From NCBI GenBank assembly GCA_018971485.1, contig JAGXAQ010000005.1, positions 78,882 through 113,172 on the forward strand: a stretch of DNA of 34,291 nt. Direction: 5' to 3'. Both the position numbers and the translations under genes were made by a program. This DNA comes from Pseudomonadota bacterium. GTDB taxonomy: Bacteria; Pseudomonadota; Gammaproteobacteria; Burkholderiales; REEB80. Below the pieces are notes generated by a model. It was not told the DNA's origin, ran no database searches, and worked only from the letters and a program-made list of their open reading frames with translations. Below are positions 8,196 to 34,291 of the stretch, one piece after another. Numbering within the stretch: the stretch's first letter is position 1; each line of letters starts with the position of its first letter.

Positions 8196-8564
8196 TCAGG
8201 GCCGGTTTAATCTGGTCTGAACGGGTTTTATTCTTTTTGCCGGGTTATACCTCGAAATAGGCACTTTGTTGCAAATGGACAAAAGTTGTCATGATCGGTA
8301 AAATTGATGCGATTTTGGGATTTTTATCAGCAGGTTTGGTGTTGAGAAAAATAGGTTTTTTCGAATAATAGCTTGTCGTTTTGCCTTTGCATCCCATCTT
8401 GTATCGGGTGCTAGTCATCCCAGTTTGGTCGGGTTTGGTGGCCGTTACCCGGGTTGTTCCCGGATGTTGCCGTACGTGTTGCATGATCCCCGAATTGGTA
8501 CGTCCCATCAGGAGGCATTACAGGTCATCAGGCAAGACCGGTTAAAGATAACGTGGAGAGCAAC
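8196..8564. other. Intergenic region between glnB and the FAH gene
   Basis: No convincing gene is seen in these 369 bp. The region contains one good sigma-70 promoter candidate (8342-8369) and a small inverted repeat CCGGG-ttgtt-CCCGG (8449-8463) in the predicted leader. No clear terminator was found directly after glnB. Confidence 0.6.
8342..8369 (+). promoter_or_regulatory. Sigma-70 promoter candidate for the FAH-PanE unit
   Basis: TTGAGA (8342-8347) matches TTGACA at 5 of 6 positions, the spacer is 16 bp, and AATAAT (8364-8369) matches TATAAT at 5 of 6. It would give a leader of about 190 nt before the ATG at 8565. Confidence 0.5.
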
Positions 8565-9335: not shown

Positions 9336-9355
9336 AGGCAGGGAAAGGAAGAAAT

Positions 9356-10399
9356 ATGCGGATCTGTATTGTTGGAGCAGGTGCCATTGGTGGGTATGTG
9401 GCTGTCAAGCTGGCCCTGGCTGGTGAGGAGGTCACCGTCATTGCACGGGGGGATCATTTAAAGGCTATTCGCCAGAATGGTCTGACCCTTTTGGATCATG
9501 ATGGAACCGAAGTGGGTGTGGCCAAAAATATCCGGGCCACGGATTCAATTGCCGAGGCAGGAAAGCAGGATGTCGTTATTTTAGCGGTCAAGGCCCATCA
9601 GGTGATTGATGTTGTAGATGAACTCCCTTTGCTTTATGGACCTGACACAGTCATGGTGACGATGCAAAATGGCATCCCTTTCTGGTATTTCAAGAAGCTT
9701 GGAGGGAATTACGAGGATCTGCCCGTTCATATTGTTGATCCAGAGGGTGAGGTGCTCAAGCGGGTGGATATTGAACGGGTGATAGGCTGTGTTGTTTATC
9801 CTGCTGCTGATCGTGTTCGTCCAGGGGTTATCCGGCACATTGAAGGTGATCGTTTCCCACTGGGTGAACTTGATGGACGTCCGAGTGAACGGATCAAGAA
9901 AGTGTCTGAGGTGTTTACCCATGCTGGCATGAAAGCGCCTGTGTTTTCAAGTGAGTCTGAGCGACCGGGAACGCGTAATATTCGAGATGAGATCTGGTTA
10001 AAATTATGGGGCAACCTGTCCTTTAATCCCATTTCAGCTTTGACCCATGCCACGCTGGTTGATCTGTGTACCTATCCTTTGACGCATGATCTGGCTGCAT
10101 CGATGATGCGTGAAGCCCAGGCTGTTGCTGAAAAGCTGGGCGCGTCATTCAGGGTGTCGCTGGAGCGGCGTATTGAGGGGGGTGCCGAAGTAGGCAAACA
10201 CAAGACTTCTACGCTTCAGGATGTGGAGGCTGGCCATGAAATTGAGGTAGACGCATTAATTGGTGCGGTTCAGGAACTAGGCCAGGTCACCAAGACCCCT
10301 ACACCTCATATTGATTCGGTTTTTGCACTGGTTAAGCTTCTGGCCAAGGTCATGAAGGATGAGCATGTTGCAATTAAACCGGTTCCAGTGTCTTCCTGA
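9356..10399 (+). CDS. PanE-family (ketopantoate reductase-like) oxidoreductase
   Basis: NADPH-dependent 2-ketoacid reductase fold, 347 aa. The Rossmann motif GAGAIGG is at 7-13. The catalytic block at 214-230 keeps K216, N220 and N224 with the K-x3-N-x3-N spacing of E. coli PanE. It is about 45 residues longer than classical PanE, with an insert at about 115-140 (GNYEDLPVHIVDPEGE), so it belongs to the long paralogous subgroup rather than being clearly the pantothenate enzyme. It is not next to panB, which is 4.5 kb away on the other strand. Methylobacterium extorquens PanE2, of the same superfamily, is reported to reduce oxalyl-CoA to glyoxylate. With frc in this window that role is an attractive but untested alternative. 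AAGGAAG precedes the ATG. Confidence 0.85.
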   Translation: MRICIVGAGAIGGYVAVKLALAGEEVTVIARGDHLKAIRQNGLTLLDHDGTEVGVAKNIRATDSIAEAGKQDVVILAVKAHQVIDVVDELPLLYGPDTVMVTMQNGIPFWYFKKLGGNYEDLPVHIVDPEGEVLKRVDIERVIGCVVYPAADRVRPGVIRHIEGDRFPLGELDGRPSERIKKVSEVFTHAGMKAPVFSSESERPGTRNIRDEIWLKLWGNLSFNPISALTHATLVDLCTYPLTHDLAASMMREAQAVAEKLGASFRVSLERRIEGGAEVGKHKTSTLQDVEAGHEIEVDALIGAVQELGQVTKTPTPHIDSVFALVKLLAKVMKDEHVAIKPVPVSS

Positions 10400-14265: not shown

Positions 14266-14874
14266 ATGGCTGCGCTTCATTCACATGCAGAATGTAACCT
14301 CATCCGGATACAGCTGAGGCAGAACCTGATTCTTCGACACATGACGCCGGATTTATGGGATGAACTGGAGCCTCAGCTTTGCATTGAGGATTACCGTAAG
14401 GGTGAGTCGCTCGTTAACCAGGGCGATTTGAATATGGAACAGTATTTTATTCTGGAAGGCATTTTAAAGCGCGCAGTTGCAAATCGTGAAGGGAAGGAAA
14501 TGATCCTGCGTTTTGCGGCCGAGACGGAAATGGACACAGCTTATGCAGCCTGGAAATTAAAAACACCTTCGCCTTACAGTATTCGCGCCGTAACGAAGGT
14601 CAGGGTGGCCAAATTACCCATTCATACGTGGGCAGCCTTCATGGACCGTCACCTGCTCATTAAAAGTGAGTTCGAGTTTGAGGTCATGCGGCTCATGAGT
14701 GAAGTTATGGCTCATACCATTACCCTGCATCTTCTGGATGCGCCTGGACGCGTGCATCGTTTTATTCGAAAGCACCCCCAGCTGTTATCCCGTGTACCTA
14801 AAAAGGAACTGGCATCCTATCTGAACCTTTCTCCTGAGACCTTAAGCCGCCTTAAACAGCGGGGCAAAATTTAA
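14266..14874 (+). CDS. Crp/Fnr-family transcriptional regulator
   Basis: 202 aa with an N-terminal cyclic-nucleotide-binding-type beta barrel (about 20-130: LVNQGDLNMEQYFILEGILKR), a dimerisation helix (about 140-160) and a C-terminal helix-turn-helix. The recognition helix PETLSRLKQ places E191, S194 and R195 as in the ETISR of E. coli FNR, the residues that read TTGA half-sites. Only two cysteines (C10, C39) are present, so there is no FNR-type iron-sulfur cluster. The strand-defining cAMP-binding RxS motif of Crp is also not evident, and the ligand is unknown. The protein ends shortly after the recognition helix, with a reduced wing. It is divergent from fdhD and convergent with panB (9-bp gap). 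Matching boxes lie before frc and sucC/mtkA. Confidence 0.88.
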   Translation: MAALHSHAECNLIRIQLRQNLILRHMTPDLWDELEPQLCIEDYRKGESLVNQGDLNMEQYFILEGILKRAVANREGKEMILRFAAETEMDTAYAAWKLKTPSPYSIRAVTKVRVAKLPIHTWAAFMDRHLLIKSEFEFEVMRLMSEVMAHTITLHLLDAPGRVHRFIRKHPQLLSRVPKKELASYLNLSPETLSRLKQRGKI

Positions 14875-18757: not shown

Positions 18758-18771
18758 TTGATCCGGGTCAA
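18758..18771 (+). promoter_or_regulatory. Fnr/Crp-type box upstream of frc
   Basis: TTGATCCGGGTCAA is a TTGA-N6-TCAA inverted repeat of the Fnr/FixK/Dnr class. A -10-like TAAGAT begins exactly 22 bp after it (18794-18799), so the box centre would be at -41.5, the class II activator position. The same arrangement recurs upstream of sucC/mtkA, and the following bases GGTATTG resemble GGTTTGG there. Confidence 0.6.
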
Positions 18772-18781
18772 GGTATTGAGA

Positions 18782-18808
18782 GATCTAAAAATCTAAGATT
18801 TTAAGATC
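18782..18808. promoter_or_regulatory. AT-rich palindrome overlapping the predicted frc promoter
   Basis: A 13-bp left arm (18782-18794) and a 13-bp right arm (18796-18808) are complementary at 12 of 13 positions around a central A. The core is AAAATCT-A-AGATTTT. It covers the TAAGAT -10 and the predicted start near 18806, so a repressor operator is a natural reading. No cognate regulator is identified. Confidence 0.45.
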
Positions 18809-18936
18809 CGAGGTAAATTTGACCGGATAAAAGGGGATGATTTACCAAGGAGGCTTTGACCCATTTACTACTGTTTAGTCTTCAGGTGAGCTCGAAGTGA
18901 TTTGCTTTGCTTGGAATTTTAAAGCGAGGTAAAGGG

Positions 18937-19107
18937 ATGAGAGCAAGGATAGCCTGTACAGGACAGGTTAAGCGTTGTGGTGGGCCTGTTGAGTCAGCAG
19001 GTGATATGGGCTTTCATGCCGTAGGATCAGAAGATGATCGGCCAGTTCAGGAGAAGATGGAAGACGATGGACGTCCGGTGCTGGTTGATGCCATGATAGA
19101 CCGTTAG
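18937..19107 (+). CDS. Possible small protein (56 aa), unrecognised
   Basis: An ATG at 18937 opens 56 codons beginning MRARIACTGQ and ending AMIDR, with GAGGT about 7 bp upstream. The composition is hydrophilic, with two cysteines at positions 7 and 13 (C-x5-C) and an acidic centre (SEDDRP, EKMEDDGRP). No signal peptide, membrane segment or known domain is visible. It lies downstream of the Fnr-type promoter and 154 bp before frc, so it would be the first gene of the frc transcript. Codon use is not clearly different from neighbours, apart from AGA, AGG and ATA near the start. It may be a chance open frame. Confidence 0.25.
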   Translation: MRARIACTGQVKRCGGPVESAGDMGFHAVGSEDDRPVQEKMEDDGRPVLVDAMIDR

Positions 19108-19261
19108 GAAAAAATCAGACGGAACTATCAAATATAAACAGATAATCTTGAAAATAATTTAACCTGCCCCCAGGCTTGCGGTAGAGCGATTTGTTTTGAT
19201 TTAAAAGCGGGATGTTGTGTTGTAGGCTCGGGTGGTTGTTCATTTTGAAGGAGAATTGACA

Positions 19262-20494
19262 ATGGAGAAAGCTCTTTCCGGTGTGCGCGTGCTGGATATG
19301 ACGCATGTTCAGGCCGGCCCCTCGTGCACTCAACTGATGGCTTGGCTGGGCGCCGATGTCATCAAGCTTGAGCCGCCTACGGGTGACATTACCCGTACTC
19401 AGCTGCGGGATGTGCCAGGCGTGGACAGTCTTTATTTTACCATGCTTAATAGCAACAAGCGTTCCATCACTGTCAATATGAAGAATGCAGACGGGAAGGA
19501 AGTCTTTACCCGTCTGGTCAAGTCGTGTGATGTGCTGCTTGAGAATTTTGGTCCGGGTGTGTTGAACCGGCTCGGTTTTCCCTGGGAAAAACTTCACGAA
19601 ATTAATCCGCGCCTGATTTATGCTTCAATCAAGGGGTTTGGTGATTCTGGCCCCTATGCCAATTTCAAGGCCTATGAAGTCATTGCGCAGGCCATGGGAG
19701 GGTCCATGAGTACCACTGGATGGTGGGATGGTCCTCCGACAGTGACAGGCTCCCAGATCGGGGACTCAGGAACAGGCGTTCATGCCCTTGCCGCGATTCT
19801 TGCTGCACTCTACCAGCGTACCCATACCGGAAAAGGCCAGTATGTCGTGGCAGCAATGCAAGATGCCATCTTGAACCTTTGCCGGGTCAAAATACGGGAT
19901 CACCAGCGTTTGTCCCATGGCGCCCTGAAAGAATATCCAACCGATACGCGAGGTCTCGATTATGTGCCCCGCTCAGGTAATGCAACCGGTGGGGGTCAGC
20001 CGGGTACGGCCATTAAATGTAAACCGGGTGGACCCAATGATTATCTGTATGTTGTGGTTCAACCCCAGGTCTGGCCTGATTTGTGCAAACTAATCGGACG
20101 TGAGGATTTGGTGACGGATGCGGCCTTTGCTACGCCAGAAGCCCGTGTAACCCATTTGCAGGATGTGTGGAATGTGCTGGAATTTTATTCCAAGGACTAC
20201 ACCAAATGGGAAATGATGGACAAACTGAATGAAATCGATGTGCCCTGTGGTCCGGTTCTGTCGACCAAGGAAATTGTCGAGAATGAGCATTTGACCTTAA
20301 AAGGCATGATCCAGGATGTACCCCATCCGACCCGTGGAAGCTACAAGACTGTCGGGTGTCCTTTGGTGCTATCTGATTCTCCAGTTGAAATCAAGCCCTC
20401 GCCTTTGCTGGGTGAACATACGGACGAAATTTTGCAGGAGCTTGGCTTTAGCAAGGAAGAGGCTGGAAAGTTCCACGAAAATGGCGCTGTCTGA
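19262..20494 (+). CDS. frc: Formyl-CoA:oxalate CoA-transferase (class III)
   Basis: CaiB/BaiF-family enzyme moving CoA from formyl-CoA (or another acyl-CoA) to oxalate, giving oxalyl-CoA; 410 aa versus 428 for Oxalobacter formigenes Frc. Conserved features: THVQAGP with Q17, [31 protein letters not shown] with the CoA-thioester Asp at D168, [14 protein letters not shown] for the glycine loop, IPCGPV and LLGEHTDE near the end. The position of O. formigenes Trp48 is occupied by Gln47, and a stretch before VPRSG is shorter, so the preferred CoA donor may differ; acetyl-CoA:oxalate transferases are close relatives. The ATG at 19262 has AAGGAG 8 bp upstream. No oxalyl-CoA decarboxylase is adjacent. 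A hairpin follows, then a formyltransferase-like gene. Confidence 0.9.
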
Positions 20495-20548
20495 TTGATG
20501 CAGGGCAGTTCCGAATTTTTAAGCGGAAATGTCTTGTCTTTTGACCTG

Positions 20549-20576
20549 CAGGGGCCGGGTTGATATCCGGTCCCTG
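20549..20576 (+). terminator. Hairpin between frc and the formyltransferase gene
   Basis: CAGGGGCCGG (20549-20558) pairs with CCGGTCCCTG (20567-20576), one G-T pair, with an 8-nt loop and ATATTTATT after. The T-run is weak, so it may be a partial terminator that lowers downstream expression. Confidence 0.5.
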
Positions 20577-20605
20577 ATATTTATTGAATTGAAAGGATAA
20601 CCACC

Positions 20606-21529
20606 ATGCGTTTAGTAATTGTCGGCCAGCAGGATTTTGGCAAGGCTGTACTTGAAGCGTTCCTGAATCGGGGCGATGAGGTTGTTGGCGTGTTTTGCGC
20701 TCCAGAAAAAGAAGGTGGCCGTCCGGATCCACTTCGTGTGTTTGCTCAGGAGAAGGGATTGAATGTCAAGCAGTTTCCTGCCCTGACTGATCCGGCAGCA
20801 CAGGAGGAACTCGCCCGTCTGAAAGCTGATGTCGGTGTGATGGCCTATGTAACCCAGTTCGCTCCCCAGGAATTTTGCGCTCTTCCCAAATTTGGCATGA
20901 TTCAGTTTCATCCTTCCCTGCTTCCTTTGCATCGGGGTGCGTCAGCGATGAGCTGGTCGATTATTTCAGGCAAGAAAGAAACCGGATTGGCTATTTTCCG
21001 CCCTAATGATGGGTTGGATGAAGGCCCGGTTATTCTGCTCAAGAAAGTGGCAATCGAAGCCGATGATACCCTGGGTAGTGTTTACTTTGGCAAGATTTTC
21101 CCGCTGGGTGTTGCCGCCATGGTTGAAGCCGCAGAACTGGTTGTTTCTGGTAAAGGTGCTGCAGTGGCCCAGTATGAGCCTGATGCAGGTTATGAGGGAA
21201 TTATCCGTGCTGCTGAATCCCAGATTCATTGGGCAAGCCATGTGGATGTGACCTATAACCTTATCCGTGGTTGTAACCCAGCCCCAGGCGCTTGGACCAC
21301 CCTGGATGGAAAGAAGCTTTTTGTTTATGATGCACGAAAGGTCTATGCCCAGCGCTTTGAACAGGTCAAAGGCAAAAAAATTGGCCAGGTGGTTGCTGAG
21401 ACTGAAAATGGGCTTCTGGTTCATGGTCAGGGTGGTTTTATTGAAATTCAGCGTGTCAAGCCTGAAGAAGGCAAAAAAATGGCTGCCAAGGATGCTGGTA
21501 TTGCCGTGGGTAGTATTCTGGGCGCCTGA
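20606..21529 (+). CDS. Formyltransferase/10-formyl-THF hydrolase-like protein
   Basis: 307 aa, resembling the N-terminal hydrolase domain of 10-formyltetrahydrofolate dehydrogenase (ALDH1L1) more than Met-tRNA formyltransferase. The Rossmann-type formyl_trans_N domain (1-180) contains FHPSLLPLHRGASA with H102 and the NDGLDEGPV loop with D138, matching the catalytic H106/D142 pair and its 36-residue spacing. The C-terminal formyl_trans_C-type domain (about 200-307) has NLIRGCNPAPGAWT. No acyl-carrier or aldehyde dehydrogenase domain is attached. Expected chemistry is removal or transfer of the formyl group of 10-formyl-THF. AAGGA precedes the ATG. It lies 111 bp after frc in the same direction. 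A true fmt normally pairs with def, which is absent here. Confidence 0.85.
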   Translation: MRLVIVGQQDFGKAVLEAFLNRGDEVVGVFCAPEKEGGRPDPLRVFAQEKGLNVKQFPALTDPAAQEELARLKADVGVMAYVTQFAPQEFCALPKFGMIQFHPSLLPLHRGASAMSWSIISGKKETGLAIFRPNDGLDEGPVILLKKVAIEADDTLGSVYFGKIFPLGVAAMVEAAELVVSGKGAAVAQYEPDAGYEGIIRAAESQIHWASHVDVTYNLIRGCNPAPGAWTTLDGKKLFVYDARKVYAQRFEQVKGKKIGQVVAETENGLLVHGQGGFIEIQRVKPEEGKKMAAKDAGIAVGSILGA

Positions 21530-21881
21530 GGGTTGGCCTTGTCTGGTTCAGGGTCCGCATTATTATGTGGGCCCTGGGTTTTGGGCCTTGTTATTTTTGC
21601 CTGATTGCCAGTATGCGGGGCATGTTCATGCATGGCCAGTCTGGCGCAGCAACAGGCATTCCGGGAATCCATTCCAGGAATCTTCTTTTGTGGGCATTAT
21701 CGAGATTTGCAGGCCCACCTGTTTTGCAATGACCACCAAGAGCCGCTGTCAGTGCCCGGTGTATGCCTGTGCTGGACTTCAGGCGGATTCGGATAATCCG
21801 TGTGGTCAAACGCCCATTTATTCCCTGTTTTCTTGTGCTAATAAAGCGTGTCCATTTTTTTAATCAGGAGGATACATACCT
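21530..21881. other. Convergent intergenic region
   Basis: 352 bp between the formyltransferase stop and the S1-protein stop. It holds the terminator at 21549-21576. Nothing else that I can support as a gene, repeat or RNA is visible, and short open frames here lack ribosome binding sites and known motifs. Confidence 0.6.
21549..21576 (+). terminator. Terminator after the formyltransferase gene
   Basis: An 11-bp stem (21549-21559 with 21566-21576, two G-T pairs) around loop TTATTA, followed by GGTTTTGGG and a T-rich stretch. It begins 20 bp after the stop codon. Confidence 0.7.
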
Positions 21882-22544
21882 TCAGGCTACTTTCCTGGCC
21901 TGTTTAAGGGATAGAACAATACGCTGGCTTCGATTGTCAACCTGAAGCACGACCAGTTCGATCTCCTGCTCAACCTGGAGCAGATCGGCGGCCTCCGGAG
22001 CAACCCTGTCCCAGGCCAGTTCGCTGGAAGGAATATACCCTTCAAGATCCTGGTCCAGCTTGACCAGTACGCCTTGGGGAGAAAATTTTGAAACACGGCC
22101 TTTGACACGGGCCCCTGCAGGATAATGCTGGTGGATATTGATCCAGGGATCAGGCAAAAGTGCTTTACGGCTTAAAGCCAGTTTTTGTGTTTCAGGATTG
22201 AAGTTGATGACCTTGAAGTGCAGGGTGTCTCCTTCACTGATGAGTTCACCCGGATCAGACACTTTTTTCCAGGCTAGTTCCGAAAGATGAACGAGGCCTG
22301 TTAACGGGCCTACCTGAACAAATGCCCCGAAGTTCATGACCCTGCTAATCTGGCCTTGCACAATATCCCCCCGGGCAGGCTGGTTGCCGCTCATGCCGGG
22401 GTAGGCCCTGTTTTTTATTTTGGCTGGAACGTGTTTTTCCGGGTCAGGTTCCTGCATCAGACCCGGCTCATGGTTGAATTCAGCCGGGTGCCGGGTTCGC
22501 TTGTTTTTGCGTAAAAAACGATTATGTGCAACATAAGGATGCAT
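21882..22544 (-). CDS. Protein with two S1 RNA-binding domains
   Basis: 220 aa. A basic, probably disordered N-terminus (1-55, RKNKRTRHP and EKHVPAKIKNR) precedes two S1 OB-fold domains. The first, about 59-128, starts GDIVQGQISRVMNFGAF and has GLVHLSEL. The second, about 143-215, starts GARVKGRVSKFSPQGVLV and has GYIPSSELAW, ending RIVLSLKQ. S1 domains bind single-stranded RNA, so a role in translation, RNA protection or turnover is likely. It is much shorter than ribosomal protein S1 and is not RNase E/G, Tex or PNPase. The ATG at 22544 has AAGGAA upstream. It is convergent with the formyltransferase gene and divergent from malic enzyme. Confidence 0.85.
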   Translation of the reverse strand: MHPYVAHNRFLRKNKRTRHPAEFNHEPGLMQEPDPEKHVPAKIKNRAYPGMSGNQPARGDIVQGQISRVMNFGAFVQVGPLTGLVHLSELAWKKVSDPGELISEGDTLHFKVINFNPETQKLALSRKALLPDPWINIHQHYPAGARVKGRVSKFSPQGVLVKLDQDLEGYIPSSELAWDRVAPEAADLLQVEQEIELVVLQVDNRSQRIVLSLKQARKVA

Positions 22545-22629
22545 GACAGGTTCCTTTTAATTTTGTGTTGGTATTAATTGACCCGGGCCCGGGGGGGCAG
22601 GGTGGGTGAACATATTGAAGAGTATGACT

Positions 22630-22661
22630 CCGGGAAGGCAAAAAAGTGCCCGGTTTTTTTT
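22630..22661 (+). terminator. Terminator-like hairpin upstream of malic enzyme
   Basis: CCGGG (22630-22634) pairs with CCCGG (22649-22653), with a possible inner GGCA/TGCC pairing, followed by eight Ts. It lies upstream of the predicted malic enzyme promoter in a divergent region, so it may act as an insulator. A perfect 12-bp GC palindrome, CCCGGGCCCGGG, is nearby at 22582-22593. Confidence 0.35.
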
Positions 22662-22665
22662 GAAA

Positions 22666-22695
22666 ATGACAATGAGCGGCGCAATTTGGTAGAAT
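22666..22695 (+). promoter_or_regulatory. Sigma-70 promoter candidate for malic enzyme
   Basis: ATGACA (22666-22671) and TAGAAT (22690-22695) with an 18-bp spacer; each hexamer matches consensus at 5 of 6 positions. The predicted leader is about 55 nt. Confidence 0.5.
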
Positions 22696-22755
22696 TTGTC
22701 TTTGAAATAGCATCCATCCGGGATGTTCTGGCACGTAATCGCTATAAGGAAGACT

Positions 22756-23967
22756 ATGGATGACCTGAAGAAAAGGGCTCTGGCCTATCATGAGTTCCCA
22801 CGTCCTGGCAAGATTTCTGTTCAACCCACGAAACCTTGCGCGACGTCGGATGAGCTGACCCTGGCCTATACTCCCGGTGTCGCTGATGCCGTCATGGAAG
22901 TGCATCATGATGCACTGAATGCGTACCGGTATACCAACAAGGGCAATCTGGTTGCTGTCATTACCAATGGAACAGCCGTGCTTGGTTTGGGTAATGTCGG
23001 TGCACTTGCCGGAAAACCCGTCATGGAAGGCAAGGCAATGCTGTTTAAACGGTTTGCTGATATTGATGTGTTTGATATTGAGGTTGATACGACTGATGTG
23101 CGTTCCTTTATTGAAACAGTTGTCAATATCGCGCCTACTTTCGGCGGAATTAATCTGGAGGATATCAAGGCACCCGAATGTTTTGCGATTGAGCAGGAGT
23201 TGACCTCCCGGTTGGATATCCCCGTTTTCCATGACGATCAGCATGGTTCAGCGGTCATTATTTGTGCAGGACTCATGAACGCACTGGAAATACAGGGCAA
23301 AAAATTAGGCGATGTGCGTATCGTTTTTTCCGGCGCAGGTGCCGCAGGTTCAGCTACGGCACGATTATTAAAAGTCATGGGCGCACGCCATATAATGATG
23401 ACAGATATCCATGGCGTGCTTCATAAAGGACGGTTTGATGAAGGAGGTCTGACCGGGGACCTTTATGAGGATACCTCTTTTCGGACCCTGTCTGAAGCGA
23501 TTGCCGGAGCAGATGTCTTTATTGGGCTTTCAGCGGCCGGTGTGCTAAAACCGCAGATGCTGGCTACCATGAATCCCGATCCGGTTGTATTTGCATTGGC
23601 TAATCCTGTTCCGGAAATACTTCCGGATTTGGCCCGGGCAACCCGTCCGGATGTATTGATGGCAACAGGGCGTTCCGATTTTCCCAACCAGGTCAATAAT
23701 TCCTTGTGTTTTCCTTATATATTCAGGGGAGCCCTTAATGCCAGGGCCAAGAGAATTACCCAGTCGATGCTGGTTGTGGCCGTGAAGGCCATTGCCGATC
23801 TGGCCAAGGAAGCAGTCCCGGAATCAGTGCTGAAAGCTTATGGATTGACGCAGATGCATTTTGGTAAAGATTATATCCTGCCCAAGCAGTTTGACCCGCG
23901 GCTTCTTGAACGGATTGCTCCTGCAGTCGAGCAGGCCTGGAAAGATGATATTTCTCAAAAGGAGTAA
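22756..23967 (+). CDS. Malic enzyme, short form (oxidative decarboxylation of malate)
   Basis: Malate + NAD(P)+ to pyruvate + CO2 + NAD(P)H; 403 aa. Landmarks: Y38 in LAYTPGVA, K93 in [10 protein letters not shown] (catalytic pair), [15 protein letters not shown], metal-binding FHDDQHGSA (D160, D161), the Rossmann GAGAAG (193-198) and [11 protein letters not shown]. The C-terminal phosphotransacetylase-like domain of about 330 residues found in most proteobacterial MaeB proteins is absent and no remnant follows. This is therefore the minimal form, and coenzyme preference cannot be called. The ATG at 22756 follows ATAAGGAAG; an upstream frame start is not family-like. A DUF2889 gene begins 4 bp after the stop. 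Confidence 0.93.
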
Positions 23968-23971
23968 GTAA

Positions 23972-24517
23972 TTGAACCGGTTGCCTGAAGGCGGCTGTGC
24001 CCGGAAACGGCTGCATGTTCGCCAGGTTACAGTCGAAGGGTATGAGCGCGAGGATGGCCTTTGGGATATTGAAGGGCATCTGACGGATCTGAAAGATGAC
24101 GATTTCGGCCGGGGGGATCGGGTTCTTCCGGCAGGGGAACCCTTGCATGATCTGTGGTTAAGAATCACGATTGATGACAGCATGGTGATCCGGGATGCGG
24201 TTGCAAAGATGGATGCTGTTCCCTATGGCGCTGGCTGTCTGGGAGCCGCGCCTCATTATGAGCGATTGGTTGGCCTTGCCCTGAAGCCTGGTTTCCGTCG
24301 CAAGGTTCAGGCTGTTCTCGGTGGCATACAAGGATGTGTTCACCTGACTGAACTGTTAGGTCCTATGGCTACGACCGCCTATCAGACTCTTTCGGCCCAT
24401 CGGCGGAACATGCGTAACCCTGACGAACGTCCTTTTCATCTGGATGCCTGCCATGCGATGGACAAACAAGGCGAAGTAGTCCGGCTTCATTATCCCCGAT
24501 GGTATGTCAGCCGATAA
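23972..24517 (+). CDS. DUF2889 family protein
   Basis: 181 aa matching the DUF2889 family of unknown function. Signatures visible: YEREDGLWDIEGHLTDLK, HDLWLRITIDDSMVIRDA, a PYGAGCLGAAPHYERLVGL segment, and the conserved GGIQGCVHLTELLGPMATTA near 125. No membrane segment or signal peptide is present, and no catalytic motif is known for the family. It starts at TTG (23972), with AAGGAG overlapping the malic enzyme stop region, and no in-frame ATG fits better. It lies between malic enzyme and the CitE-like lyase with 4- and 8-bp gaps, so all three are probably one transcript, which links this DUF to C4-acid or acyl-CoA metabolism. Confidence 0.85.
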   Translation: MNRLPEGGCARKRLHVRQVTVEGYEREDGLWDIEGHLTDLKDDDFGRGDRVLPAGEPLHDLWLRITIDDSMVIRDAVAKMDAVPYGAGCLGAAPHYERLVGLALKPGFRRKVQAVLGGIQGCVHLTELLGPMATTAYQTLSAHRRNMRNPDERPFHLDACHAMDKQGEVVRLHYPRWYVSR

Positions 24518-24525
24518 GGAACGAG

Positions 24526-25401
24526 ATGATCCCAATGCATTTTCGCAGCATTCTTTTTGCTCCGGGTAATCGTCCGGATATGCTTCATAAGGCAGCAGGT
24601 TCGGCTGCTGATGCCATCATGCCGGATATGGAAGATTCGGTGCGCCAGGAAGACAAAAAGGGTGCACGTGAGCAGATTCGTCAGGAGCTTGATCGGCTGG
24701 TTGCCACTGGAAAGCCGGTGATCCCAAGGGTCAATTCGCTTCCAACGGGTCTGACTGCCGAGGATATGGCAGCCGTGATGCATGAGAAGGTTGCCCTGGT
24801 TTCGATTGGCAAGATCAGTTCTGTTGAGGATGTCCTGGAAGTCGATCGACTGTTATGTGAAGCCGAGAAGAGGGCAGGGATTAGGGTCGGGCATACTGGA
24901 CTATTGCCCTGGCTTGAAACGGCGAAGGCATTGCTGCACCCCGAGGCTGTGCTTGCCGCATCCCCAAGAATCCGGGTTTGCGCGTTTGGTGCAGATGATT
25001 TTGCGGCTGACATGGGTTTTGTTCGTAGCAGTGATTTACGCCAGACGCAGTGGGTCAAGAGTCATGTTGCAGTGGCGGCCCGTGCCACAGGAGTCTGGGT
25101 GATGGATTCACCCTGTATCCAGTTTCGTGAGTTAAGCCTGCTTCATGGAGAGATTGAAGAAGCCAGGATGCTGGGGTTTAGGGGCAAGTTTGCCATTCAT
25201 CCCGCCCAGCTTAATGTTATCAACAGAGGATTTTGTCCTCATCCGCAGGAAGTGGCCCGCGCTCAAGCAATACTTGAAGCATGGAACCGGGCTCCCAGGG
25301 GACGTGGCGCGCTTAATCTCGAAGGTGTGATGGTTGATGAGCCATTAATCAGGCAGTGCCTGCAGATAGTTGCTCAAGCCGAACGGTTTGTTGTAAAGTA
25401 A
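24526..25401 (+). CDS. HpcH/HpaI-CitE family lyase, probable malyl-CoA lyase
   Basis: 291 aa TIM-barrel lyase splitting a 3-hydroxyacyl-CoA, with (S)-malyl-CoA to acetyl-CoA and glyoxylate the likeliest reaction here. Motifs: RSILFAPGNRPDML at the N-terminus (CoA phosphate contact Arg), PDMEDSV, PWLETAKALL with the Mg-binding Glu, VCAFGADDFAADMG with the Mg-binding Asp, and GKFAIHPAQLNVIN near the end. Overall it is closer to stand-alone CitE-like proteins than to M. extorquens Mcl, so citramalyl-CoA or citryl-CoA-type substrates remain possible. Citrate lyase partners citD and citF are absent. The adjacent sucCD/mtkAB genes favour malyl-CoA. The ATG at 24526 follows AAGGA at the end of the DUF2889 gene. 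Confidence 0.82.
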   Translation: MIPMHFRSILFAPGNRPDMLHKAAGSAADAIMPDMEDSVRQEDKKGAREQIRQELDRLVATGKPVIPRVNSLPTGLTAEDMAAVMHEKVALVSIGKISSVEDVLEVDRLLCEAEKRAGIRVGHTGLLPWLETAKALLHPEAVLAASPRIRVCAFGADDFAADMGFVRSSDLRQTQWVKSHVAVAARATGVWVMDSPCIQFRELSLLHGEIEEARMLGFRGKFAIHPAQLNVINRGFCPHPQEVARAQAILEAWNRAPRGRGALNLEGVMVDEPLIRQCLQIVAQAERFVVK

Positions 25402-25467
25402 TCCATTTTAAATCTTCAAGATTATCTTCTGATAAACAGGATATTAGGAGCGTGTTTTAGGTCAAAA

Positions 25468-25481
25468 TTGACTCCGGTCAA
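25468..25481 (+). promoter_or_regulatory. Fnr/Crp-type box upstream of sucC/mtkA
   Basis: TTGACTCCGGTCAA is TTGA-N6-TCAA and also a perfect TTGAC-N4-GTCAA palindrome. An extra GTCAA half-site lies 2 bp upstream (25461-25465). TAAGCT starts 22 bp downstream (25504-25509), giving the class II position as in front of frc; TAAGAT at 25499 is an alternative -10. The predicted start near 25516 leaves about 61 nt of leader. Confidence 0.6.
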
Positions 25482-25576
25482 GGTTTGGACCCCCTTTTTA
25501 AGATAAGCTCCCAAGGTGGGTAATCTATGGCTGCCGCAGACCAGGCGGTGTGAGTACTATAACCAGAAGGATAATT

Positions 25577-26743
25577 ATGAAAATTCATGAGTACCAGGGC
25601 AAGGAGATTTTAAGGAAGTACGGTGTCGCCACACCCCGTGGCATTCCGTGTTTTTCCGTGGATGAGGCTGTAAAGGCAGCTGAAACGCTGGGCGGAAATG
25701 TCTGGGTGGTGAAAGCACAGATCCATGCCGGTGGGCGAGGTAAAGGGGGGGGAGTAAAGGTCGCAAAATCCAAAGAGGAAGTGCGCCGGTTGGCAAAAGA
25801 AATTCTGGGTATGACGCTCGTAACCCATCAGACCGGCCCGGAAGGCAAGCTTGTCAAGCGCCTCCTGATTGAAGAAGGGGCTGATATCAAGAAAGAGCTT
25901 TATGTGGGCATGGTCATTGACAGGGGATCCCAGCGTGTGGTGCTGATGGCGTCCAGTGAAGGCGGAATGGATATCGAGCATGTGGCTGAACATACCCCGG
26001 AATTGATTCATAAGGTGTTTATTGATCCTGGAACCGGTCTGACCGATGCAGAAGCCCGGGATATTTCGCGCAAGATTGGCCTTCCTGATGCGGCCATTCC
26101 TGAAGCGGTTACCTTCATGAAGGCGCTGTATCAGGCTTTCTGGGATACTGATGCGTCTTTGGCTGAAATCAACCCGTTGATTCTTACCGCGGACAATCGT
26201 GTGTTCGCCCTTGATGCCAAGATGAATTTTGATTCCAACGCGCTCTATCGTCATCCGGACATTGTTGCCATGCGTGACTTGGATGAAGAGGATGCCGCCG
26301 AAATTGAAGCGTCCAAGTTTGACTTGACCTATATTTCACTTGATGGTGACATTGCCTGTCTGGTTAATGGTGCAGGCCTTGCCATGGCAACAATGGACAT
26401 TATCAAGCTGTTTGGTGGCAATCCTGCAAACTTCCTTGATGTAGGTGGGGGCGCAACAACCGAAAAAGTAACCGAAGCGTTCAAGATCATGCTTAAAAAC
26501 AGTAAGGTCAAGGCTATTCTGGTTAATATTTTCGGTGGAATCATGAAGTGTGATGTCATCGCCGAAGGAGTTGTGGCTGCAGCTCGCCAGGTTGGTTTGC
26601 CCGTTCCGCTCATCGTGCGTCTTGAAGGCACGAATGTCGATTTGGGCAAGAAGATCCTGGCTGAGTCGGGTCTGCCCATCATTTCCGCCAACAGCATGGC
26701 GGATGCCGCTGAGAAAGCTGTTAAAGCCGCAAAAGGTAAATAA
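25577..26743 (+). CDS. sucC: Succinate/malate-CoA ligase beta subunit (SucC/MtkA family)
   Basis: ATP-grasp subunit of an ADP-forming acyl-CoA synthetase, 388 aa, the standard SucC length. Landmarks: [34 protein letters not shown] (nucleotide site), [11 protein letters not shown] (Mg ligands), [27 protein letters not shown] and [14 protein letters not shown]. The sequence looks close to betaproteobacterial SucC as I remember it. Malate-CoA ligase (MtkA) is a homologue and motifs alone do not separate the two. The position next to a CitE-like lyase, and the absence of sucA/B, sdh or lpd, favours a malate role; a normal TCA role is the alternative. The ATG at 25577 has AGAAGGA before it. It is preceded by the Fnr-type promoter and followed 2 bp later by sucD. 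Confidence 0.9.
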
Positions 26744-27920: not shown

Positions 27921-29630
27921 ATGTCCGACCAAAAGGTAATTCAGATTAACCCGACTCGTAAGCAGACTGGCAAGCTACGCCCCACCCTGAAAGGGCGAAT
28001 GGTTGATGCCAAGGCGCTTGCCGAGGTTCGTGAGCTGCTGGGAAATGCATCAAGGCAGCGTGATTTGCTAATAGAGCATTTGCATAAGATTCAGGATAAA
28101 TACAAGCATCTGTCTGCAGCCCACCTGACTGCTCTGGCCAGTGAAATGAGACTGGCTACGACTGAAGTGTATGAAGTAGCAACGTTCTATCACCATTTTG
28201 ATGTGATTAAGGAAGATGAAACTCCCCCGCCGCAATTAACGGTACGGGTGTGTGATTCTGTTTCCTGTGCCATTGCTGGCGCTGATTCCTTAAGTGATGA
28301 ACTGAAGGCGCGCATTGGAAAGGATGTTCGGGTGATTCATGCCCCCTGTGTGGGGCGCTGCCAGCATGCCCCTGTTGCAGTGGTAGGCCAGAATCCCATT
28401 GACGAGGCCACGCCGGAAAAAGTGGTAGAGGCCGTCAAGGCAGGATCAGTGACGCCTGAAATCACTGATTATGTGGATTATGACGAATATCTCAAGCTGG
28501 GTGGATACCGGGTTCTTAAGGATTGCCATGAGGGGGTGCGCCAGCCTGCCCAGGTCATTGAAGCTTTATCCCATGCAGGATTACGTGGGCTAGGTGGTGC
28601 AGGGATGGCTACCGGTCGAAAATGGAACATCATGCTCAAGACCGATCCAAATGGACGGATTCTGGCTATGAATGCTGATGAGGGGGAACCTGGAACCTTC
28701 AAGGATCGTTATTTTATGGAATCGGATCCCCACCGTATCCTTGAGGGGATGCTGATAGCCGCAGCCTGTCTGAATCTGGCTGACTTGTATCTGTATGTGC
28801 GTGATGAGTATGCTGGCGTGCGGGAGATATATCGACGTGAACTTGAAAAACTGGCCGCTCATCCGCCTTTTGGACTCAAACTGCCCCCTATTCATTTGCG
28901 TCGGGGCGCAGGGGCCTATATCTGTGGTGAGCAGTCAGCCATGATTGAATCGCTTGAAGGCAAGCGTGGAGAGCCGCGTTTGCGCCCCCCATTCCTGACA
29001 GATGTCGGATTGTTCGGGCGGCCTACGCTTGAGCATAATGTCGAGACCCTTTATTGGGTGCGTGATATTGTGGAAAAAGGCCCGGAATGGTTCTCGTCCT
29101 ATGGTCGCCATGATCGAAAAGGACTGCGTTCCTTTTCTGTGTCCGGGCGTGTCAAGAAACCCGGTGTACATCTGGCTCCAGCCGGAATCACGATGGTTGA
29201 ACTGATTGATGAGTATTGTGGTGGCATGCTGGATGGCCATACTTTTGCAGCATATCTGCCAGGAGGTGCTTCAGGAGGTATCTTGCCAGCCCGTCTTGGA
29301 AATATCCCCCTTGACTTTGATACACTCCAACCTTATGGCTGTTTTATTGGTTCTGCTGCAGTCATGGTGCTGTCTGACAAGGATGATGTCGTTGAAGTGG
29401 CACGCAATGTCATGCGGTTTTTTGCAGATGAATCCTGCGGACAGTGCACTCCATGCCGTGTGGGAACAGCTAAAGCACTTCGTTTGATGGAAGCGCCGAG
29501 GTGGGATGCCGCCTTGCTGGAAGAGTTGTCTGAGGCAATGGTAGAAGCGTCCATCTGTGGCTTGGGACAGGCTGCTCCTAATCCTATTCGTTGCGTGATA
29601 AAGTATTTTTCCGAGGAGATTAGCAAATGA
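27921..29630 (+). CDS. fdhB: NAD-dependent formate dehydrogenase beta subunit (NuoE-NuoF fusion)
   Basis: NADH-forming flavoprotein subunit, 569 aa, passing electrons from the formate-oxidising subunit to NAD+. The N-terminal NuoE-like part (about 25-165) has a 2Fe-2S site: C111, C116, C143, C147. The NuoF-like part (about 195-569) has GLRGLGGAGMATGRKW (NADH), ADEGEPGTFKDR, GAGAYICGEQSA (FMN), and a 4Fe-4S site ESCGQCTPCR with C506, C509, C512 and C546. The fusion and length match Fdh1B of M. extorquens (about 572 aa) rather than the separate FdsG and FdsB of Cupriavidus. The next gene overlaps the stop by 4 bp. No convincing Fnr-type box precedes it; TTGAATGGGACCAA at 27881 has one mismatch and lies too close to the ATG. 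Confidence 0.94.
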   Translation: MSDQKVIQINPTRKQTGKLRPTLKGRMVDAKALAEVRELLGNASRQRDLLIEHLHKIQDKYKHLSAAHLTALASEMRLATTEVYEVATFYHHFDVIKEDETPPPQLTVRVCDSVSCAIAGADSLSDELKARIGKDVRVIHAPCVGRCQHAPVAVVGQNPIDEATPEKVVEAVKAGSVTPEITDYVDYDEYLKLGGYRVLKDCHEGVRQPAQVIEALSHAGLRGLGGAGMATGRKWNIMLKTDPNGRILAMNADEGEPGTFKDRYFMESDPHRILEGMLIAAACLNLADLYLYVRDEYAGVREIYRRELEKLAAHPPFGLKLPPIHLRRGAGAYICGEQSAMIESLEGKRGEPRLRPPFLTDVGLFGRPTLEHNVETLYWVRDIVEKGPEWFSSYGRHDRKGLRSFSVSGRVKKPGVHLAPAGITMVELIDEYCGGMLDGHTFAAYLPGGASGGILPARLGNIPLDFDTLQPYGCFIGSAAVMVLSDKDDVVEVARNVMRFFADESCGQCTPCRVGTAKALRLMEAPRWDAALLEELSEAMVEASICGLGQAAPNPIRCVIKYFSEEISK

Positions 29631-32428
29631 ATGCCATGACTGAACAGGAAATCCAGGCTGAGCTTATTGAGTTCAAGCTAAATGGCGCCAGTGTTTCTGC
29701 ACGCTCGGATGAAACGATTCTACAGGCTGCGGATAGGCACGGTATTGAGATTCCACGGCTGTGCTACATGGATGGGATGCGTCCTGATGGTAACTGCCGA
29801 TCCTGCATGGTTGAGATTGCTGGAGAGAAAACGCTGGCACCTTCCTGCTGCCGTTATCCCAAGGCAGGAATGGATGTGCGTTCAGACAGTGAAAAGGCTC
29901 TTCATTCCCAGAAAATGGTGCTGGAGCTTCTCCTGTCCGATCGCCCGGAAAAATCCTATTCCATGCACTCCGAACTGGATTACTGGGCCAACAAGCTTAA
30001 CATCGGGTTACCCCGTTTTCATCAGCGTACCCAGCCTCAGTCTGATTTGAGTCATGCTGGAATCAGTGTGAACCTGGATGCCTGTATCCAGTGTACTCGA
30101 TGTGTCCGCGCCTGTCGTGAAGTCCAGGTCAATGATGTGATCGGGTACGCTTTCCGTGGAGAGCATTCCAAGATTGTATTTGATCTGGATGATCCAATGG
30201 GTGAATCCAGTTGCGTGGGTTGTGGAGAATGTGTCCAGGCCTGTCCGACGGGTGCATTGATGCCTGCACGTGATGTAGGGCTTGTTACGCCGGATAGCCA
30301 GGTGAATTCCGTTTGCCCTTATTGTGGGGTTGGCTGTCAGCTCACCTATAATATCAAGGACAACAAGATTTTGTATGTAGAAGGCCGGGATGGTCCGGCC
30401 AATCATGGTCGTTTGTGTGTCAAGGGCCGCTATGGGTTTGATTATGTCCATCATAAACAGCGCCTGACCAGGCCGCTTATCCGTAAAGAAGGCATGCGCA
30501 AAACTGCCACAATGGATATGAATCCGGATGACTTCATGAGTATCTTTCGTGAAGCCACCTGGGAAGAAGCCCTGGCTTATGCGGCTCAAGGGTTAAAGAA
30601 AATCCGTGATGAGAAGGGCCCCAAGGCTCTTGCCGGGTTCGGTTCGGCCAAGGGCTCGAATGAAGAGGCTTATCTCTTCCAGAAGCTGGTGCGCATGGGT
30701 TTTGGTTCGAACAATGTGGATCACTGTACGAGATTGTGTCACGCTTCGAGTGTGGCAGCGCTGCTTGAAGGAATCGGATCGGGCGCGGTGTCCAATCAGG
30801 TTTCCGATGCCCTCCTGGCTGATGTGATTATCGTGATTGGCTCTAATCCTACCATGAACCATCCGGTTGCTGCCACGTTCATCAAGAATGCAGCCAAGCA
30901 GGGTTCAACGCTGATTGTCATGGATCCAAAACGTGGTGATCTGGCGCGCCATGCGCATTTTAATCTCCAGTTCAAACCGGATACGGATGTATCCCTTCTG
31001 AATGCAATGATGCATACCATTATTGCCGAAGGCCTGGTTGACGAAAAATTCATTGCAGAACGCACGGAAAATTTTGAAGCCCTGAAGGAAAATGTCAGGA
31101 AATACTCGCCGGAAGCGATGGCCCCAATCTGTGGGATTGATGCAGAGACCATCAAAACGGTAGCACGGCGCTATGCCACCAGCAAAGGCAGCATTATTTT
31201 CTGGGGCATGGGGATTTCCCAGCATGTTCACGGCACTGATAATGCACGCTGCCTGATTGCACTGTCCATGATGACGGGTCAGGTTGGGCGTCCTGGAACG
31301 GGACTGCACCCCTTGAGAGGCCAGAATAATGTTCAGGGGGCTTCTGATGCCGGGCTGATCCCGATGGTCTATCCTGATTACCAGTCAGTTGCCGATCCTG
31401 ATGTCCGCGCCAAGTTTGAATCCCTCTGGGGAGCAAAACTGGATCCAAAACCAGGCCTGACCGTGGTTGAAATCATGGATGCGGTTCATCATGGCAAGAT
31501 TAAAGGCATGTATATCATGGGAGAAAATCCCGCCATGTCGGATCCAGATACCAATCATGTTCGAGAAGCAATGTCCCGTCTGGACATGATGGTTGTGCAG
31601 GATATTTTTCTGACCGAAACAGCCTATTTTGCAGATGTGGTGTTGCCTGCATCGGCGTTTCCCGAGAAAACGGGCACGTTTACCAATACGGACAGAATCG
31701 TTCAGTTGGGGCGGCAGGCGTTGCAGCTGCCTGGAGAGGCCCGTCAGGATCTCTGGATTATCCAGGAACTGGCGCGTGGATTGGGATTAAACTGGAATTA
31801 CGAAGGTCCCAAGGATGTCTTTAATGAAATGCGCAAGGCCATGCCTTCTATTGCAGGCATTACCTGGGAGCGCCTGGAGTCTGATGATGCTGTGACCTAT
31901 CCTTGCGAGAAGGAAGGGGATCCGGGTGAACCTGTCATTTTTGTGGACAGTTTTCCGACTAAGAACGGGCGTGGTAAATTTGTCCCGGCTGATATCATCC
32001 ATGCCGATGAGCGCCCGGATTCGGAATATCCGATGGTACTGATTACGGGGCGGCAGCTTGAGCATTGGCATACCGGTTCGATGACGCGTCGGGCAGGTGT
32101 TCTGGATGCGATTGAGTCGCAACCCGTAGCCTCGATTCATCCGCTGGATCTGGAGAACCTGGGGATTGAGGCAGGGGATATCATTACTGTTTCGTCGCGT
32201 CGGGGAGAGATTTGCCTTTATGCCCGTGCAGATGATGGTGTGCCGCGTAATGCCGTATTTGTCCCATTTTGCTTTTACGAGGCCTCGGCCAATAAATTGA
32301 CCAATCCGGCACTGGATCCTATCGGAAAGATTGCTGAAGTGAAATATTGTGCGGTCAAGGTTATCCCGGGTGGAATGCTTACACCGCAAACCAGCTATGG
32401 AGGGGGGCAGATTCTCGCTCAGGTCTGA
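29627..32428 (+). CDS. fdhA: NAD-dependent formate dehydrogenase alpha subunit (Mo/W-bis-MGD)
   Basis: Catalytic subunit oxidising formate to CO2, 933 aa, cytosolic (no Tat signal). Order: 2Fe-2S ferredoxin-like domain (C46, C57, C60, C74/75); NuoG-type His/Cys region; two 4Fe-4S clusters (C153, C156, C159, C163 and C196, C199, C202, C206); then the molybdopterin domain with its own 4Fe-4S site (C230, C233, C237, C264). The metal ligand is Cys371 followed by His372 in VDHCTRLCH, where E. coli FdhF has selenocysteine. GENPAMSDPD and RQLEHWHTGSMTRR of the cofactor domains are intact. It is the FDH1-type partner of the preceding NuoEF-like subunit. Tungsten or molybdenum cannot be distinguished. 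It would depend on FdhD, MobA and MoeA encoded upstream in the window. Confidence 0.95.
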   Translation: MNAMTEQEIQAELIEFKLNGASVSARSDETILQAADRHGIEIPRLCYMDGMRPDGNCRSCMVEIAGEKTLAPSCCRYPKAGMDVRSDSEKALHSQKMVLELLLSDRPEKSYSMHSELDYWANKLNIGLPRFHQRTQPQSDLSHAGISVNLDACIQCTRCVRACREVQVNDVIGYAFRGEHSKIVFDLDDPMGESSCVGCGECVQACPTGALMPARDVGLVTPDSQVNSVCPYCGVGCQLTYNIKDNKILYVEGRDGPANHGRLCVKGRYGFDYVHHKQRLTRPLIRKEGMRKTATMDMNPDDFMSIFREATWEEALAYAAQGLKKIRDEKGPKALAGFGSAKGSNEEAYLFQKLVRMGFGSNNVDHCTRLCHASSVAALLEGIGSGAVSNQVSDALLADVIIVIGSNPTMNHPVAATFIKNAAKQGSTLIVMDPKRGDLARHAHFNLQFKPDTDVSLLNAMMHTIIAEGLVDEKFIAERTENFEALKENVRKYSPEAMAPICGIDAETIKTVARRYATSKGSIIFWGMGISQHVHGTDNARCLIALSMMTGQVGRPGTGLHPLRGQNNVQGASDAGLIPMVYPDYQSVADPDVRAKFESLWGAKLDPKPGLTVVEIMDAVHHGKIKGMYIMGENPAMSDPDTNHVREAMSRLDMMVVQDIFLTETAYFADVVLPASAFPEKTGTFTNTDRIVQLGRQALQLPGEARQDLWIIQELARGLGLNWNYEGPKDVFNEMRKAMPSIAGITWERLESDDAVTYPCEKEGDPGEPVIFVDSFPTKNGRGKFVPADIIHADERPDSEYPMVLITGRQLEHWHTGSMTRRAGVLDAIESQPVASIHPLDLENLGIEAGDIITVSSRRGEICLYARADDGVPRNAVFVPFCFYEASANKLTNPALDPIGKIAEVKYCAVKVIPGGMLTPQTSYGGGQILAQV

Positions 32429-32441
32429 TTGGATAATACCG

Positions 32442-32472
32442 TCCGGGCCCGCTTATTTAAGGCGGGCCCGGA
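32442..32472 (+). terminator. Rho-independent terminator after fdhA
   Basis: A perfect 11-bp GC-rich stem, TCCGGGCCCGC / GCGGGCCCGGA, with a 9-nt loop, followed by TTTAATTTT. It starts 13 bp after the fdhA stop. Confidence 0.85.
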
Positions 32473-32489
32473 TTTAATTTTAGGTGGAT

Positions 32490-32648: not shown

Positions 32649-34291
32649 ATGCCCTCAGATATCGAAATTGCCCAGAAAGCCAGCATGCGACGTATTGCTG
32701 ACGTTGCACGTGACAAACTGGGTATTGCCGACGAAAACCTGGTTCCTTATGGCCACTATAAGGCTAAAGTGAATCTGGACTACGTCAATAGCCTAAAAGG
32801 CCAGGATGGCCATCTTATTCTGGTGACTGCAATTAGCCCTACGCCTGCAGGCGAAGGGAAAACCACCACTACTGTCGGTCTGGGTGATGCTTTGAACCGG
32901 ATTGGCAAGAAAGCCATGATCTGCCTGCGTGAGCCTGCATTAGGGCCGGTTTTCGGTGTTAAGGGGGGTGCAGCAGGCGGCGGGTACGCCCAGGTCGTTC
33001 CGATGGAAGATATTAATCTTCACTTTACAGGTGATTTTCATGCGATTGGCCTGGCTAACAATCTGTTGGCAGCATTGATTGACAATCATGTACATCATGG
33101 CAATCCGTTAGGAATTGATGTCCGTCGCGTAACCTGGAAACGGGTCATGGACATGAACGATCGCTCCTTGCGTGATGTGGCGATTGCCCTGGGTGGACCT
33201 GGTGATGGCTACCCCCGTAAAGATGGTTTTGATATTGTAGTGGCGTCTGAAGTTATGGCTATTTTCTGCCTGGCCACGTCCTTGAAAGATCTGAAGGATC
33301 GTCTGGGTAAGATTGTCTGCGCATATACACGTGATCTGAAACCGATTACGGCCAAGGACTTGAATGCCCATGGAGCCATGGCTGTACTTCTGAAGGATGC
33401 CTTGCACCCGAATCTGGTTCAGACCCTTGAAAATAACCCTGCCTTTATTCACGGTGGACCTTTTGCGAATATTGCACATGGCTGCAACTCGGTTATTGCA
33501 ACCAAGGCTGCATTGAAGCTGTGTGATTATGTGGTTACAGAAGCCGGGTTTGGTGCGGATCTGGGTGCTGAGAAGTTTATTGATATTAAATGCCGCAAGG
33601 CCGGTATCAAACCTGAAGTTGTCGTCATTGTGGCTACCATTCGCGCCCTGAAATATCATGGTGGTGTGGATCTGAAGTCGCTCAATACCGAAAACCTGGA
33701 TGCGCTGGCCAAAGGCTGCGCCAATCTGGAGCGACATGTTTCCAATGTCAAGAATAACTATGGCTTGCCTTGTGTGGTTGCCATCAATCGGTTCACGTTT
33801 GATACCGATGCAGAAATTAACCTTCTGAAGGAAAAGATGGCAGCTTACAACACCAAAGTTGTTCTAGCTGAACATTGGGCAAAAGGCGGCGCAGGTGCCG
33901 AAGAGTTAGCCAAAACTGTTGTTGATCTGATTGCAACAGAAAAATCCAACTTCAAGTTTGTTTACGATGAGAATGATACCCTTGAAGAAAAAATGAACAA
34001 GGTTGTGACCAAGATTTATGGTGCAGCAGGTGCGACGTTTGATCCCAAGGTTAAAGCCAATCTGGCTAAATGGCAAGAAGAAGGCTATGGCAAGTTCCCC
34101 ATTTGTATTGCTAAAACCCAGTATTCCTTCTCGACCAATGCCAAGTCTTTAGGTGCGCCATCTGGACATACTGTTCATGTTCGTGAAGCAAGACTTGCGG
34201 CCGGCGCTGAGTTTGTTGTTATGGTTAGTGGTGAGATCATGACCATGCCAGGTTTGCCGAAAGTTCCATCTGCAGACAAGATTGACTTGGA
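32649..34291 (+). CDS. fhs: Formate-tetrahydrofolate ligase (3' end cut by window)
   Basis: ATP + formate + THF to 10-formyl-THF + ADP + Pi, the entry of formate into folate-bound C1 metabolism; also called FtfL. 547 codons are visible and the frame is open at the window end. The family is about 555-560 aa, so only about ten residues are missing. Features: the P-loop [15 protein letters not shown] (about 65-79), [52 protein letters not shown] and [20 protein letters not shown] precedes the ATG by about 8 bp. It follows the fdhA terminator, so it has its own promoter or leader. With Fdh it forms the branch point between formate oxidation and assimilation. Confidence 0.96.

Follow-up and report, generated by a model that had tools for sequence, protein, structure and literature searches.

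A Fnr-type promoter element shared by oxalate and formate genes, and its candidate Crp/Fnr-type regulator, in a Burkholderiales genome

The 34,291-nucleotide stretch of contig JAGXAQ010000005.1 analyzed here (the window; assembly GCA_018971485.1, from a Pseudomonadota bacterium of the order Burkholderiales, our genome G000) carries two transcription units, one beginning with frc (formyl-CoA transferase) and one with a sucC- or mtkA-type CoA ligase gene, and each is preceded by a TTGA-N6-TCAA box. The question raised by this locus is whether a single activator controls both units and, if so, whether it is the Crp/Fnr-type protein encoded at 14266-14874. Comparison of sequences across genomes makes it very probable that the boxes are class II operators of an oxalate/formyl-CoA/formate regulon driven by this protein. 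The features on which the question turns are the following:

18758-18771, + strand: candidate operator box of the frc promoter, TTGATCCGGGTCAA, with GG directly after it; conserved in L021, the sister species
18794-18799, + strand: -10 element TAAGAT, 22 bp past the frc box; expected start near 18806
25468-25481, + strand: candidate operator box before sucC/mtkA, TTGACTCCGGTCAA, followed by GG; kept in L021
25504-25509, + strand: -10 element TAAGCT, 22 bp past the sucC box; expected start near 25516
14266-14874, + strand: Crp/Fnr-type protein, the proposed regulator, with E191, S194, and R195 in the recognition helix

Both boxes, both hexamers, and both 22-bp gaps lie exactly where an earlier note on this DNA had placed them, and the likeness that it had noticed past the boxes (GGTATTG before frc, GGTTTGG before sucC) is confirmed. 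In class II activation, a CRP/Fnr dimer centered at -41.5 contacts RNA polymerase, and both window promoters show the corresponding geometry, a TTGA-N6-TCAA box with a -10 element 22 bp downstream. The note had proposed one activator for both units; a Crp/Fnr-type factor acting at class II sites fits, and the window protein is its likeliest identity because the gene tracks the box across families, so that the interpretation as a whole is partly supported. The two units, which the note had called unlinked, are indeed separate but only 6.7 kb apart, and the truly unlinked member is oxc. The intact oxc lies on a different contig, at G000:C15:58121; TTGACCAAGGTCAAGG stands 270 bp ahead of where the oxc match begins, and GATAAT follows this box at 23 bp. 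Candidate operators precede both frc and oxc, as expected of an oxalate regulon.

Conservation and rarity of the element

Both elements are present in the sister species (REEB109, genome G001, locus L021), in which frc is 95% identical: TTGATCAGGGTCAA with TAACAT at 22 bp precedes frc, and TTGACCCCGGTCAA with TACACT at 22 bp precedes sucC. Each box is identical at 13 of 14 positions and the GG is kept, whereas the upstream 60 bp match at only 25/60 and 18/60 positions (ungapped). These comparisons were made ungapped and by blastn, as a MAFFT alignment of the whole frc leader misplaced the box. The oxc box, its GG, and its -10 element are likewise all kept in G001, and an alternative TAAGAT at window position 25499 is not kept in L021. 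A separate motif, CTCCCAAGGTGGGT at 25508-25521, overlaps the expected sucC start and is identical in the sister species despite the diverged spacer preceding it; it may be a site for a second factor.

The bare box alone proves little. It occurs three times in the window, once inside fdhD, against a shuffle mean of 1.0, and at least three copies appear in 6 of 100 shuffles, a count within chance; genome-wide there are 96 sites versus 25 for the reversed pattern. A check of 11 further GTCAA-type boxes of G000 (two more sites, both on contig C32, were left out) places eight within an open reading frame (ORF) and a ninth (L134) within a 122-residue ORF dropped by the ORF filter. The earlier note had named a motif equally common inside genes as evidence against its reading; this tells against the bare box and leaves the full element unaffected. 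The genome-wide scan that it had called for, a box followed at 22 bp by TAnnnT, yields five matches versus one in the control; the three matches other than the frc and sucC promoters are L001 and L004, inside ORFs, and L005, outside any. With the GG included, the strict element is TTGAYNNNNRTCAAGG-N20-TANNNT (box, GG, 22-bp gap, and TAnnnT). G000 (1.93 Mb) and G001 each contain exactly two copies of it, before frc and before sucC in both, and its reverse occurs in none of the 150 genomes listed.

The regulator and the box across the order

The 14266-14874 protein matches only cNMP_binding in Pfam, with no match reported for the HTH_Crp domain. In most of 39 regulator sequences the chain stops within about 10 residues of the recognition helix, the exceptions being L057 and L038, which have longer tails, and L033, which is cut by the contig. 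The predicted structure is nonetheless CRP-like (pLDDT 91.9, pTM 0.86), with a sensor domain and a C-terminal helix-turn-helix, and the best PDB folds for the model are GlxR/CRP at about 20% identity. The recognition residues E..SR, which the earlier note had stressed, are invariant as E191, S194, and R195 in 30 aligned orthologs. No Fnr-type cysteine cluster is found in the regulator, as at most 3 of the 30 orthologs have Cys in any column; the protein scores 26.6 bits against a cut-off of 266 for the curated CRP model, and no Fnr model is reported for it. Its ligand is likely other than cAMP, because the cAMP-holding arginine of CRP is missing from the alignment when inspected by eye. A plasmid search for the regulator gave no match.

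The regulator is found in 75 of 399 genomes of the order. Its distribution follows that of frc: 17 of 18 frc-positive genomes have it and 0 of 41 frc-negative genomes do (n = 59 genomes, with G007 dropped for low completeness; Fisher test, 6.5e-14). Among 59 frc loci from other species, 20 contain a regulator ortholog; a TTGAY-N4-RTCAA box is present in all 20 of these but in only 2 of the 39 without the regulator gene, the reversed pattern being present in none. The 28 best-scoring regulator loci from 73 regulator-positive genomes outside the genus span seven families; 26 of them carry a box no more than 250 bp upstream of the regulator gene (shuffle mean 0.02, maximum 1; reversed pattern 0), and the remaining two have a box just behind it. 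A common arrangement in other families is a regulator gene and a divergent frc or oxc-type gene with the box between them. In one such region (L093:2853), a single box is flanked by TAnnnT at 22 bp in both directions, TATAGT toward frc and TAAAAT toward the regulator gene, which suggests a two-way promoter.

Among 36 boxes from outside the genus, of which 27 adjoin the regulator gene and 9 precede frc, TAnnnT follows 35 at a gap of 22 bp (23 boxes) or 23 bp (12 boxes); none has it at gaps of 14-21, and there are two extra matches at gaps of 24-28. A 16-position matrix built from these 36 boxes was scored on 64 oriented occurrences in the examined G000 loci, a subset of the genome; the sucC box comes first with 25.4 bits and the frc box next with 23.6 bits. 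The eight fixed TTGA/TCAA letters were part of the selection, so that only the inner positions and the GG discriminate.

Boxes before sucC and fhs (formate-tetrahydrofolate ligase) also follow the regulator. With one sucC copy per genome, a box precedes sucC in 8 of 20 regulator-positive genomes (G001, G012, G046, G048, G055, G059, G089, and G091; the 20 include G006 and G058, whose upstream regions are cut by contig ends) and in 0 of 10 regulator-negative genomes. A formate dehydrogenase subunit gene lies behind sucCD in seven of the eight genomes with a sucC box, while a DUF2889 gene instead lies upstream of sucC in 7 of the 12 boxless regulator-positive genomes; the window order is DUF2889, then a malyl-CoA-lyase-like gene, then the sucC box. 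For fhs, 11 of 18 regulator-positive genomes have a box at a distance of up to 400 bp, versus 0 of 3 negative ones.

Two side observations concern the frc loci of this survey. In L067 (at 3896; also L054:3886 and L056:3908) another box lies about 6 kb before frc; the genes that follow this box in L067 look, on inspection by eye, like those for a tripartite tricarboxylate transporter, which would be a candidate for oxalate import. Loci L046 and L062 come from metagenome bins titled Bordetella parapertussis and Klebsiella pneumoniae but resemble the frc loci of environmental Betaproteobacteria; the titles are probably wrong.

Competing readers of the boxes

The main rival reading is Fnr. The earlier note had described the 14266-14874 protein as the only Crp/Fnr protein in the window, which holds, but it is not alone elsewhere in G000: L106 scores above the curated Fnr cut-off (232 versus 228) and has both C-x2-C-x5-C and the same E..SR recognition residues, L109 is Fnr-like but lacks the recognition-helix E, and L108, at the edge of a contig, is incomplete and lacks the recognition helix. 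The boxes would then be ordinary Fnr/Anr sites at which oxygen-sensing L106 activates frc, oxc, and sucC at low oxygen while the 14266-14874 protein does something else; in a variant, both proteins might share the sites. Several points weigh on this side and against assigning the boxes to the 14266-14874 protein. In G000, TTGATCCAGGTCAA precedes a cydA-like gene. Across 150 genomes of the order, the strict element turns up in 54: it is present in 18 of 34 that encode the regulator and in 36 of 116 that do not (p = 0.025), and one hit in the latter group, in G045 (L159), lies before a norC-like gene. Both the cydA-like and the norC-like gene were assigned by eye. Other Fnr-type factors evidently share the box and the spacing, so the element is not regulator-specific and does not by itself name its reader. 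In addition, the oxc box ranks only sixth (16.1 bits) by the matrix, no box lies within 1.5 kb of the regulator gene in this genus, fhs in the window has no box of its own, the sucC and fhs contrasts by regulator status are weak (p = 0.029 and p = 0.09, respectively), and the genomes are related, so that the counts across them are not independent.

The discriminating evidence is the position of the box beside the regulator gene and the oxalate genes, not the element itself. The box tracks both the presence and the position of the regulator gene, in a comparison limited to box and regulator gene; in G030, the sole genome that has frc without the regulator, the 1.5 kb upstream of frc contain no box; and sucC and fhs boxes are seen only in regulator-positive genomes. 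Fnr could read the same boxes, but this covariation argues against Fnr as their sole reader, and we consider it unlikely that these are ordinary Fnr sites. The boxes before the cydA-like and norC-like genes were set aside as regulon members, as they are probable Fnr/Dnr targets. It is far less probable still that the boxes are conserved sites of some other factor, with the regulator gene linked to frc for a different reason. Linkage alone is no proof of control, and the genome encodes yet another Fnr-like protein, L109; however, a reader unrelated to the regulator would leave the box directly upstream of its gene in 26 of 28 loci to be explained, and the recognition helix would fit TTGA half-sites under the Fnr code. 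We give almost no credence to a chance resemblance of the two spacers: the chance-level count of the bare box in the window, and a simple sigma-70 promoter scan that lists neither the frc nor the sucC promoter, would allow it, but it is already contradicted by the retention of both elements in the sister species and by the recurrence of the same spacing in other families.

The predicted regulon and known systems

The genes placed downstream of the two window promoters are the following:

18806-19261, + strand: leader before frc, with a thiamine-dependent enzyme gene reduced to short DNA blocks
19262-20494, + strand: frc, formyl-CoA transferase (TIGR03253, 621.8 bits, cut-off 504.2; ATG at 19262)
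20606-21529, + strand: formyltransferase-like gene (Pfam Formyl_trans_N and Formyl_trans_C; below the fmt cut-off)
25577-26743, + strand: sucC or mtkA, succinate- or malate-CoA ligase beta subunit; only copy found in the genome
26746-27624, + strand: sucD or mtkB, alpha subunit
27921-29630, + strand: NuoE/NuoF-like subunit, probably of an NAD-linked formate dehydrogenase (below the NuoF and NuoE cut-offs)
29627-32428, + strand: formate dehydrogenase alpha subunit (TIGR01591, 786.6 bits, cut-off 666.25)
32649-34291, + strand: fhs, formate-tetrahydrofolate ligase; runs off the contig end

The leader suggests a history for the frc promoter. In L021, about 790 bp separate the box from frc and contain a 152-residue ORF (L021:9455-9913), a remnant with both ends of a thiamine-dependent lyase/decarboxylase-like enzyme. 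The two ends are 43% and 39% identical to an enzyme at the same place in L023 (66 and 47 bits; maximum of 30 shuffles, 23 bits), which is closest to acetolactate-synthase-like and 2-hydroxyacyl-CoA-lyase models but below their cut-offs. An origin of the leader from an intact oxc was rejected, as the L021 remnant reaches only 29 bits to the Oxc of the genome. In the window itself, no protein match exceeds the shuffles. As a gene remnant lies between box and frc in L021 and is nearly erased in the window, the frc promoter appears to be older than the decay of the gene that it first served.

A formyltransferase-like gene also lies beside frc in 33 of 59 frc loci, in several phyla. Elsewhere in the window, at 8553-10399, are FAA-hydrolase-like and PanE/ApbA-like genes, and PanE-like relatives occur near frc in other loci too (e.g., L033, L038-L041, L050, L059, and L070). 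It is possible that the window genes handle a glyoxylate/oxalyl-CoA step, based on ApbA2 in PMC7486775.

The earlier note had assigned the second unit to a malyl-CoA branch, a label that is doubtful for 25577-26743. This gene scores 594.9 bits against the succinate-CoA ligase beta model (cut-off 370) but fails the malate-CoA ligase beta cut-off (548.7 versus 604); it is the only sucC-type gene found in the genome, sucA is present, and formate dehydrogenase genes and fhs lie downstream. A CitE/malyl-CoA-lyase-like gene does adjoin it upstream. A malyl-CoA branch is possible but not supported, and it is at least as likely that the unit combines succinyl-CoA supply with formate oxidation. The window fhs, which lacks its own box, may be a separate unit, because a terminator-like hairpin lies between fdhA and fhs (32441-32473).

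From the boxes, their geometry and conservation, and their linkage and co-occurrence with the regulator gene, we infer a mechanism of joint activation. A dimer of the 14266-14874 protein would bind each box, which, centered near -41.5, would replace a -35 element, and would recruit RNA polymerase to the -10 element 22 bp downstream, with an inducing signal presumably arising from oxalate/formyl-CoA metabolism. The regulon in this genus would consist of frc plus the formyltransferase-like gene next to it, sucCD (mtkAB) plus the formate dehydrogenase genes that follow, and oxc at its separate location; in other families it would extend to fhs, which there has boxes as well. More tentatively, and with the balance of our judgment against it in this full form, the protein could be a dedicated betaproteobacterial Crp/Fnr-type regulator that uses its former nucleotide pocket to sense a product of oxalate/formyl-CoA metabolism, such as oxalyl-CoA, formyl-CoA, oxalate, or formate, and that jointly induces the breakdown of oxalate, the oxidation and assimilation of formate, and the supply of succinyl-CoA.

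Oxalate-degrading bacteria are relevant to soil carbon and to the oxalate burden of animals, and a candidate regulator gene, a fixed-spacing operator, and a short target list make the control of oxalate and formate use testable. These observations point to a control system for oxalate and formate use not described so far. We found no description of an frc/oxc transcription factor in Betaproteobacteria in the open-licence literature, in which "Crp/Fnr" is not searchable as a term and absence is therefore unproven, nor in the available parts of PMC7486775, PMC12927642, and PMC9476978.

Among known systems, the closest in promoter form are the class II promoters of Fnr, Anr, and Dnr. They share the TTGA-N6-TCAA box, the center near -41.5, the -10 element at 22-23 bp, and the E..SR helix. 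Unlike them, the boxes described here favor TTGAC-N4-GTCAA followed by GG, and the proposed regulator is without a conserved cysteine and far below the curated CRP model. In sequence, the regulator is most like 3dn7-type Crp/Fnr proteins, as 3dn7 (annotated as a cyclic nucleotide binding regulatory protein, from a Bacteroidetes genome) is its best match among solved structures (E 1.2e-12). In enzymes, the counterpart is the frc-oxc oxalate operon of Cupriavidus, where Frc and Oxc act ahead of formate dehydrogenase; the available parts of the published accounts name no regulator (PMC7486775, PMC9476978). The core enzymes Frc and Oxc are the same and formate dehydrogenase likewise follows; unlike in the Cupriavidus operons, oxc here lies on a different contig, and a gene once present between the promoter and frc has decayed.

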